The notes beneath the pieces are model-generated. The model was not told where the DNA came from. It was given only the letters and a program-made list of their open reading frames with translations, and made no database searches. The translations under genes were made by a program, and so were the position numbers. DNA of 34,004 nt from NCBI GenBank assembly GCA_021850485.1, contig JAJZLY010000024.1, positions 1 to 34,004 of the forward strand. Direction: 5' to 3'. Positions 7,453 through 9,791 of this stretch are shown one piece after another (positions within the stretch are counted from its first letter, which is position 1; every line of letters starts with the position of its first letter). The stretch comes from Bacillota bacterium (lineage in GTDB: Bacteria; Bacillota; Sulfobacillia; JAJZYS01; JAJZLH01).

Positions 7453-7587
7453 TCAGACCGCCAGGCGGCGGCGTCCCTTCAGGCGGCGGGCCCGCAGGAC
7501 GCGCTGGCCCCCCAGGGACCGCATCCTCTTGCGGAAGCCATGCACCTTGTGACGGCGGCGGTTGTTCGGCTGAAACGTGCGCTTCAC
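7453..7587 (-). CDS. rpmH: 50S ribosomal protein L34
   Basis: The 44-residue product is L34: it starts [18 protein letters not shown], continues [18 protein letters not shown] and ends RRRLAV. It is a small basic protein of the large ribosomal subunit. The GTG start at 7587 has GAGGAG eight bases upstream. It is divergent from dnaA, the conserved arrangement at bacterial origins. The rnpA reading frame runs open across the whole gene in a different phase. Confidence 0.97.
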
Positions 7588-7661
7588 CGGGAGCACTCCT
7601 CACGTCCGAAAACTCTCAATCGCGACCCTTAGTCCAGGTCGCCAGCAGATAGGTGCATAGC

Positions 7662-7691
7662 ATTGTCCGTCCTCGGCCCTGTCGCTGTCAA
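7662..7691 (-). promoter_or_regulatory. Candidate sigma-A promoter for rpmH-rnpA-yidD-yidC series
   Basis: On the minus strand a perfect TTGACA (7686-7691) is followed after 18 bases by GACAAT (7662-7667, four of six matches to TATAAT). This would start transcription about 65-70 bases upstream of the rpmH start codon. It is the only good -35 in the leader. Confidence 0.55.
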
Positions 7692-7742
7692 GAAACGCAC
7701 GGTGACCTTGAGCAAGCTGGCGTGTTTTGCCAATTCAGGCGC

Positions 7743-7797
7743 TCCTGGGCAGAGCGATTGGCTCCTGCCATATATGGTGCTTTTGGCGCGCCCAGGA
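7743..7797 (+). repeat. Long-armed inverted repeat with internal palindrome
   Basis: TCCTGGGC (7743-7750) is matched by GCCCAGGA (7790-7797), a perfect 8-bp pair. The loop contains the 10-bp palindrome CCATATATGG (7768-7777). A second TCCTGGGC copy at 7816-7823 can pair with the same 7790-7797 arm, so two folds exclude each other. Confidence 0.6.
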
Positions 7798-7822
7798 AGT
7801 CGGCGCTTTGGCCTGTCCTGGG

Positions 7823-7850
7823 CGGGTCTGCGGGTTGTCCCGCAAACCCG
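7823..7850 (+). repeat. Strong hairpin in the rpmH-dnaA gap
   Basis: CGGGT (7823-7827) pairs with ACCCG (7846-7850), and inside it GCGGG (7830-7834) pairs with CCCGC (7839-7843) around a TTGT loop, with a 2x2 internal mismatch. No protein site is recognised in it. Confidence 0.6.
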
Positions 7851-7890
7851 TGCAGATTTTCTCAATCGGACGGGAGGAGGCCCCGTCGGT

Positions 7891-7916
7891 CGCCGAGAAC
7901 AAGGGGATTCTCGGCG
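7891..7916 (+). repeat. Perfect 9-bp inverted repeat
   Basis: CGCCGAGAA (7891-7899) and TTCTCGGCG (7908-7916) are perfect complements around an 8-base loop. It is the third strong stem between the rpmH promoter and the terminator at 7963. Confidence 0.65.
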
Positions 7917-7962
7917 CTCGGCAACCGTCAGTCGCTGCCCGTCGAGGGGAGCCAAAACAAGC

Positions 7963-7996
7963 CCCCATCTGCCATTGGGCAGCGCTGGGGTTTTTT
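7963..7996 (+). terminator. Rho-independent terminator upstream of dnaA
   Basis: An outer stem CCCCA/TGGGG (7963-7967 with 7986-7990) and an inner stem CTGCC/GGCAG (7969-7973 with 7978-7982) with an ATTG loop are followed at once by six T residues (7991-7996). It points rightwards. No annotated rightward gene precedes it, so it either ends a short unannotated transcript or shields dnaA and the DnaA boxes from read-through. Confidence 0.7.
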
Positions 7997-7998
7997 CA

Positions 7999-8007
7999 TT
8001 ATCCACA
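7999..8007 (+). other. DnaA box, perfect
   Basis: TTATCCACA matches the DnaA-box consensus (TTATNCACA) at every position. It starts two bases after the terminator T-run and lies in an A+T-rich patch. Confidence 0.85.
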
Positions 8008-8010
8008 CCC

Positions 8011-8019
8011 TGTGTACAA
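8011..8019 (-). other. DnaA box, one mismatch
   Basis: On the minus strand the site reads TTGTACACA, one mismatch (third base) from the consensus. It faces the perfect box three bases away, forming an inverted pair. Confidence 0.6.
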
Positions 8020-8203
8020 ACCTGTTGATTATCCTGTGTGTTCTTTATACCTCCTTCATTCACTTGACAGACCCCGTTACGGACCATCCCGACAGGCCGT
8101 CGCCCGCATCATCCTCCCTCCACCATCACGCATATCACGACCCGCAGTGCCTTGATCCACCTGCGACGGCGTTCGTTCCGACCAATTGACGGGGGGGTTC
8201 CCA

Positions 8204-9541
8204 GTGACCGAAGAGGTGACGAAACTGTGGGGCGAGACCTTGGCCGCAGTGTCGCATCTGGTGCCTCGACCAAGCTACGAGACCTGGCTCAGAGGCACGT
8301 CGCCGGTCCAACTGGAAGGCGGGGTCCTGGTGCTCGGCGTGGAGTCGCCGGCAGCCCGCCAGATGATGGAGAAGCGCTACCTGGGGCTGATCCAGGAAAA
8401 GGCCCAGGAGGTTTTCCAGCGGCCGCTGTCGATTCGTCTGGTCAGCGGCGACGCCAAGGCACCGCTGGCTGCAACCACTTCGGCTAGCCGACCACGCACG
8501 GCGGGGGCCGACACCCTCACCCGGGGTGCGACCATCAATCCCCGCTACACCTTTGAGGGGTTCGTCATTGGCGGTTCGAATCGGTTTGCCCACGCTGCTT
8601 CGTACGCGGTCGCCGAGTCACCGGCCAAGGCGTACAATCCCCTGTTTCTCTACGGCGGGGTCGGCCTTGGCAAGACCCACCTGATGCATGCCATCGGCAA
8701 CCAGATCGCCGCCCAGTACCCAAAGCTGCGGGTGGTCTATGTCTCGGCAGAAAGTTTCACCAATGACATGATCAACTCCATCCGCGACGACAAGATGGCC
8801 GCCTTTCGCAACCGCTTCCGGGGGATTGACGTGCTGCTGATCGACGACATCCAATTCCTTTCCGGCAAGGAGCGGACCCAGGAGGAGTTTTTCCATACGT
8901 TTGAGGCCTTGCATGGGGCGATGAAGCAAGTGGTGATCTCCTCCGACCGCTTGCCCAAGGAGATCCCCACCCTGGAAGAGCGTCTTCGTTCTCGCTTCGA
9001 ATGGGGACTGATCGCCGACATACAGCCACCGGACTTCGAGACCCGAGTCGCCATCTTGCGCAAAAAGGCCCAGTCCGACCAGCTCGACGTTCCGGACGAT
9101 GTGCTGTCCTTCATCGCCTCCAAGATCGATTCCAACATCCGCGAGCTCGAAGGTGCCCTGATCCGGCTGGTGGCCTTTTTGTCCCTGCACGCCGAACCCT
9201 GCACCGTGGCCATGGCAGACCGGGTTTTGCGCAGCATCCTGCCCAAGCCCAAGTTGCTGACCGTGCGCCTGATCCAGGAGGAAGTTGCCCGCCGCTACCG
9301 GGTTCCGGTCACCGATCTGACTGGCGCCTCACGCTCCCGTTCTGTCTCTCTGCCTCGGCAGGTGGCGATGTACCTGTGCCGCTCTTTGACTGATACATCG
9401 CTGCCGCGTCTGGGCGAGGCGTTTGGCGGTCGTGACCACAGCACGATCATGCATGGCTGTGCGCGGGTGAAGGAACAGATGGAGACGGACCCAGCCTTTC
9501 GGGCCGCTGTCGAGTCTCTGGGCGATAGCCTGCGGGCCTAG
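8204..9541 (+). CDS. dnaA: Chromosomal replication initiator DnaA
   Basis: DnaA binds DnaA boxes at oriC, unwinds the origin as an ATP filament and recruits the helicase. The 445-residue product shows the N-terminal helicase-contact domain (LWGETLAAV to about residue 75), a short linker, an AAA+ core with Walker A GGVGLGKTH near 151-159 and Walker B LLIDDIQF near 211-218, and a C-terminal DNA-binding domain with GGRDHSTIMHGC near 408-419. I chose GTG at 8204, six bases after a G-run (a weak ribosome site); TTG at 8186 is in frame but less likely. Its promoter was not found with confidence; a TTGACA at 8064-8069 lacks a good -10. Confidence 0.98.
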   Translation: MTEEVTKLWGETLAAVSHLVPRPSYETWLRGTSPVQLEGGVLVLGVESPAARQMMEKRYLGLIQEKAQEVFQRPLSIRLVSGDAKAPLAATTSASRPRTAGADTLTRGATINPRYTFEGFVIGGSNRFAHAASYAVAESPAKAYNPLFLYGGVGLGKTHLMHAIGNQIAAQYPKLRVVYVSAESFTNDMINSIRDDKMAAFRNRFRGIDVLLIDDIQFLSGKERTQEEFFHTFEALHGAMKQVVISSDRLPKEIPTLEERLRSRFEWGLIADIQPPDFETRVAILRKKAQSDQLDVPDDVLSFIASKIDSNIRELEGALIRLVAFLSLHAEPCTVAMADRVLRSILPKPKLLTVRLIQEEVARRYRVPVTDLTGASRSRSVSLPRQVAMYLCRSLTDTSLPRLGEAFGGRDHSTIMHGCARVKEQMETDPAFRAAVESLGDSLRA

Positions 9542-9791
9542 CTTCTCCGCCGCACTCTGTGGACAGGCAGTGCAGTCTTTGTGGATAAGGGGCATCTCCA
9601 CCGTTATCGTCGGTTTTTCCTTGATCGTTGGCCGCTTCATGCACAGGCTTCCGATCCTTCTCGTGCCCGCCCAGATTGTGGTTGCTAAGTTATCCCCGAT
9701 CTCCCCAGCCTCTCCTAATGACGACTAATCTTGAATATCTGGCATGATGAGTTCGGAACCCTGTGCACATTGGGAAGGGAGCGAAGCGTTG
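9542..9791. other. dnaA-dnaN intergenic region, second origin element
   Basis: About 250 bp without a gene. It carries one perfect DnaA box on the minus strand (9580-9588), weaker two-mismatch copies at 9558-9566, 9690-9698 and 9771-9779, and an A+T-richer stretch around 9600-9630 and 9680-9740. A possible extended -10 (TGC then TAAGTT, 9683-9691) could drive dnaN. The layout fits a bipartite origin flanking dnaA. Confidence 0.65.
9580..9588 (-). other. DnaA box, perfect
   Basis: The plus strand reads TGTGGATAA, so the minus strand is the perfect box TTATCCACA. It lies 38 bases after the dnaA stop codon. Confidence 0.82.

Follow-up and report, generated by a model that had tools for sequence, protein, structure and literature searches.

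A conserved putative terminator hairpin beside the DnaA boxes in a genus of Sulfobacillia

The dnaA region in described systems and in the window

Phyla differ in how cells match the supply of DnaA to initiation, and transcription in the vicinity of oriC is known to matter. In Bacillota, the dnaA region is laid out as rpmH, PdnaA, DnaA boxes, and dnaA; Paenibacillus and Bacillus loci, like most of the class studied here, have a dnaA promoter with an extended -10 element ahead of the boxes. In Bacillus subtilis, a promoter within the DnaA boxes drives leftward transcription of the antisense RNA ArrA (PMC12112137). In Escherichia coli, the asnC terminator adjoins a DnaA box beside the origin, and DnaA bound at that box blocks RNA polymerase (Schaefer and Messer 1988, 1989, as cited in PMC10950094).

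The window (the whole stretch of DNA analyzed, 34,004 nt) belongs to a 1.6-Mb assembly of 33 contigs and shares the Bacillota gene order and box cluster. The interval of interest is flanked by rpmH on the minus strand (7453-7596) and dnaA on the plus strand (GTG start at 8204). As the initial annotation had observed, rpmH points the other way, and no plus-strand gene ends in the interval. The DnaA-box cluster (7999-8031) consists of TTATCCACA at 7999-8007 (plus strand), which is a perfect DnaA box, TTGTACACA at 8011-8019 (minus strand), and TGTTGATTA at 8023-8031. The rpmH-dnaA interval was aligned among three genomes, that of the window and those of two congeners, G001 and G002. The cluster is nearly invariant in this genus, and boxes occupy the same place in relatives. 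A second perfect DnaA box is found at 9580-9588 (minus strand), just downstream of dnaA and before dnaN; together with the upstream cluster, it suggests a bipartite origin as in Bacillus.

The promoter of rpmH (TTGACA-N18-GACAAT, 7662-7691, minus strand) is directed away from dnaA and is conserved in all three species with a score of 12.4 bits. When the three aligned species were scanned with a weight matrix, the stretch from the rpmH promoter to the hairpin described below yielded no sigma-A promoter conserved on the plus strand, in agreement with the initial annotation, which had reported no clear promoter. A TTGCCA near 7727 and a TATATG near 7773 were considered and rejected, each being without a partner element and without conservation. 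The best conserved plus-strand candidate, TTGATT-N15-TATACC (8025-8051), falls within the box cluster, on the downstream side of the hairpin; its spacing is weak, and it scores 7.8, 7.8, and 5.7 in the three species versus 12.4 for the rpmH promoter. Past the boxes, a TTGACA at 8064-8069 is invariant in the three congeners, two of which have no -10 element at the right distance from it.

A conserved hairpin with a T-run next to the boxes

On the plus strand directly before the box cluster lies a hairpin, designated T2 (7963-7996, about -16 kcal/mol), which consists of a GC stem with a 1x3 internal loop, a 4-nt loop (CCCCATCTGCC-ATTG-GGCAGCGCTGGGG, 7963-7990), and the T-run TTTTTT (7991-7996). 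The T-run ends at 7996 and the first DnaA box starts at 7999, leaving a gap of 2 bases. A GC-rich stem-loop with an immediate T-run is the sequence criterion for an intrinsic (Rho-independent) terminator, and T2 has both elements. Terminator candidates were ranked inside the 34,004-nt window. The initial annotation had described a textbook terminator with six T residues here; the GC hairpin and the six T residues are present, but T2 is not quite textbook because its stem contains the internal loop and a simple terminator consensus scan missed it. T2 also differs from described intrinsic terminators in that it follows no gene or recognizable transcription unit; it appears to lie outside the usual context of a terminator because no transcription into it is recognizable from the sequence.

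In the three-species alignment, no intergenic part other than the DnaA boxes is as conserved as the arms and tail of T2. The arms (7961-7973 and 7978-7990) are invariant at 26 of 26 positions compared to 49 of 91 positions in the background at 7863-7953 (Fisher P = 1.5e-6). Five of the six positions of the T-run are invariant (it reads TTTTTT or TCTTTT), and the loop varies, with a single invariant position out of four. The terminator that had been placed just ahead of the DnaA boxes is thus borne out as a rightward signal with arms conserved in three species. No compensatory changes occur in the arms among these three genomes, which are too few to separate constraint on pairing from constraint on sequence.

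On this evidence and the survey of the class given below, we propose that T2 acts as a terminator insulating the cluster of DnaA boxes and that it derives from a promoter-proximal hairpin in the dnaA leader found across the class, a reading to which we assign a probability of roughly 0.55. T2 would be an intrinsic terminator, acting mainly rightward, set flush against the boxes that form the dnaA-proximal part of oriC, and it would halt RNA polymerase coming from the left before it reached either the boxes or the region of the dnaA promoter. A barrier that shields the origin had been offered in the initial annotation as the alternative to a noncoding RNA, and it is the better fit of the two. 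T2 may also cooperate with DnaA bound at the adjoining box. The E. coli asnC terminator, as described in the work cited in PMC10950094, provides a precedent for such a model, as it likewise adjoins a DnaA box beside the origin; it differs in that it ends a gene transcript, and an effect of DnaA at T2 is putative.

Two other readings of the conserved hairpin were weighed. The invariance of the arms extends to their unpaired bases, and the hairpin directly abuts the boxes, both of which would suit a DNA element of the origin, either a protein site or a cruciform, that carries no transcription signal. However, a variable loop combined with a retained T-run is what one expects of a terminator, and relatives keep a hairpin of unrelated sequence at this place, so that a pure DNA element appears very unlikely. 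The second reading stems from the near symmetry of T2, the minus-strand version of which has a folding energy of -15.1 kcal/mol and a TTGTTTT tail. Along with a minus-strand GATAAT that is invariant in the genus, this would be compatible with T2 terminating antisense transcripts that leave the dnaA region leftward, comparable to ArrA. The minus-strand T-tract is interrupted in G001 (CTCGTTTGTGG), however, and the GATAAT has a poor -35 element, scores 7.6 versus 12.4 for the rpmH promoter, and coincides with a DnaA box. A primarily leftward function is therefore highly improbable. The locus resembles that of ArrA in placing a feature of untranslated RNA biology between rpmH and dnaA, beside the DnaA boxes, but the conserved signal in the window is a putative rightward terminator, in contrast to the leftward ArrA.

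Upstream stems and the proposal of a structured RNA

The initial annotation had proposed that a rightward structured RNA of 250 to 300 nt ends at T2. The stems on which this was based, at 7743-7797 or 7790-7823, 7823-7850, and 7891-7916, exist at or near these coordinates in an inverted-repeat check. The farthest upstream are two alternative plus-strand stems (7743-7750/7790-7797 and 7789-7797/7816-7824, spanning 7743-7824). They are followed by T1 (7828-7862, plus strand), a second terminator-like hairpin that is associated with an inverted repeat at 7818-7834/7839-7855 and ends in ATTTTCTC, and by H2 (7891-7916, plus strand), a hairpin with a perfect 9-bp stem (7891-7899/7908-7916) and no T-run.

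The 257-nt plus strand at 7740-7996 folds with a minimum free energy of -133 kcal/mol (z = -4.5), and 0 of 200 shuffles were as good. Of 200 control stretches taken from both strands at 100 positions of the window, 0 reached z = -4; in this comparison, which used 30 shuffles, 7740-7996 itself scored z = -3.5. The stretch therefore out-folds all of its shuffles and nearly all of the window. Its minus strand is more structured than its plus strand (z = -6.1), and because the reverse strand folds better relative to its shuffles, fold strength assigns no strand. The strong folding reports inverted repeats in the DNA and by itself does not indicate a plus-strand RNA, and it was rejected as support for one. 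The interval does not behave as a repeat or mobile element, having a single match in its own genome, nor as a coding region, as all six frames are about equally similar to the congeners, as DNA identity alone predicts, and no frame is favored.

The genus alignment falls into two zones, a poorly conserved one that extends from the rpmH promoter up to about 7855 and a conserved block from there on. Only 8 of 43 positions at 7812-7854 are invariant in the three species, and the stems before about 7856, including the two alternative stems, are absent or unrelated in both congeners. The T-rich tail of T1 (7855-7862) is invariant at 7 of 8 positions; at this same tail G002 has a hairpin of different sequence (-14.4 kcal/mol) and G001 has none. 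H2 is retained as 7 bp in G002 and is largely broken in G001. The equivalent 257 nt fold no better than shuffles in G001 (z = +0.54) and only modestly better in G002 (z = -1.7).

The conservation that a structured RNA of this length would predict is thus missing: the genus shows no conservation of its 5' part (7740-7855), the 5' stems are lost in the relatives, and the fold in G001 is at chance level. A conserved 250-nt structured RNA is not supported. Rfam 15 covariance models at gathering scores detected tRNAs only, 7740-7996 matched no family, and at a permissive threshold the best hit in 7550-8250 was P17 with 11.8 bits against a cutoff of 45, consistent with the initial annotation, in which no match to 6S RNA, tmRNA, the signal recognition particle RNA, or RNase P RNA could be made. 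We also considered a rightward noncoding RNA of about 100 to 300 nt that would start at an unrecognized promoter and end at T2. The strong folding, the presence of a conserved terminator with no gene upstream, and the partial conservation of H2 and of the T1 tail speak in its favor, but the absence of a conserved promoter and of an Rfam match, the unconserved 5' part, the loss of the fold in G001, and the stronger folding of the other strand make such an RNA rather unlikely. As far as the window is concerned, the outcome is modest: a conserved putative terminator guarding the origin and not a new RNA family.

A hairpin in the dnaA leader across the class

The regions upstream of dnaA were surveyed in 134 genomes of the class. 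A promoter-like sequence, P1 (TTGNNN-N16-18-TGNTATNAT), lies upstream of the box cluster in 100 of these genomes by a strict pattern, and a weight-matrix search adds further cases (for example, G004 and G098). Named Paenibacillus and Bacillus loci also have a P1-type promoter ahead of the boxes. As PdnaA of B. subtilis is likewise found upstream of the DnaA sites (PMC12112137), P1 is most likely the ordinary dnaA promoter.

In 25 of the 30 promoter-bearing families tested, a GC hairpin separates P1 from the first DnaA box. It begins at a median of 9 nt after the -10 element and ends shortly before the first box. Family-averaged folding has a z score of -1.30 (P = 5e-5) at +10 from the -10 element and is near 0 upstream and downstream, and a second, independent profile from a smaller set anchored on the first box has the same peak. 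The common layout (for example, L198, L139, L039, and L176) is an extended -10 promoter, about 9 nt, the GC hairpin, often a T-rich tract, and the DnaA boxes. This hairpin is missing between promoter and boxes in the Paenibacillus and Bacillus loci. Its sequence differs by family, with ATCGCCGG...CCGGCGAT-TCTTG, GGCCACCC...GGGCGGCC-ATTTTC, and CCTCCG...CGGAGG as examples, a pattern that, as judged from these comparisons, favors selection acting on the hairpin over selection acting on its sequence. T residues after the hairpins number 3.1 versus 2.2 of 8, a difference inflated by the TTAT of the DnaA boxes, and in one family (f10) about 8 nt separate the hairpin from the T-tract downstream, a spacing that is noncanonical for termination. 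The f10 alignment is out of register for a firm count of covariation, and the stem pairs of the hairpin in family f4 never vary and are hence uninformative in this respect. In the open-access papers searched, no account was found of a hairpin lying between dnaA promoter and DnaA boxes in this group. The occurrence of the hairpin with varying sequence in most families of the class suggests that dnaA is subject to an as yet unstudied layer of control.

Within the order of the window, sister families f3 and f4 have P1, the hairpin, ATTTT or TTTTC, and a box, and sister family f2 (G003) has P1 and no hairpin. In the genus of the window, the hairpin is directly upstream of the first DnaA box, as in the class, and P1 is absent about 9 nt upstream of it in 3 of 3 genomes by both the strict pattern and the weight matrix, in contrast to the usual Bacillota arrangement. 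We propose that the insulating terminator T2 descends from the class arrangement (TTGNNN-N17-TGNTATNAT, about 9 nt, GC hairpin, often a T-rich tract, DnaA boxes). Relatives that have P1 would transcribe the hairpin first, and it could act as a promoter-proximal attenuator causing partial termination, as a pause site, or as a 5' stabilizer of dnaA mRNA. As P1 is gone from the genus of the window, presumably by loss, the hairpin would have stayed as an insulator, and dnaA would probably be transcribed from inside or below the boxes.

T2 could instead still be a regulated attenuator of dnaA, read from a promoter upstream of it and either relieved by an alternative pairing or enforced by DnaA bound at the box. 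Class relatives have the equivalent hairpin downstream of P1, from which it would be transcribed, and the window contains an antiterminator-like competing pairing of 8 bp between CGCTGCCC (7933-7940) and GGGCAGCG (7977-7984) in the 3' arm of T2. By inspection of the alignment, this pairing reads as 6 bp in G002 but is absent in G001, and the required upstream promoter was not found, which leaves regulated attenuation in this genus doubtful. A broader and speculative version, which we consider unlikely, is that the class as a whole carries an autoregulatory attenuator in oriC: a terminator or pause hairpin no more than about 10 nt after the dnaA promoter, over which DnaA at the first box would trap RNA polymerase and so abort its own messenger, with the genus of the window keeping the hairpin after loss of the promoter.

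The genomes of this genus, which have no upstream dnaA promoter (7597-8204 in the window, and L017 and L018), are 1.5 to 1.6 Mb in size; other members of the order, at 2.0 to 3.5 Mb, retain the promoter.
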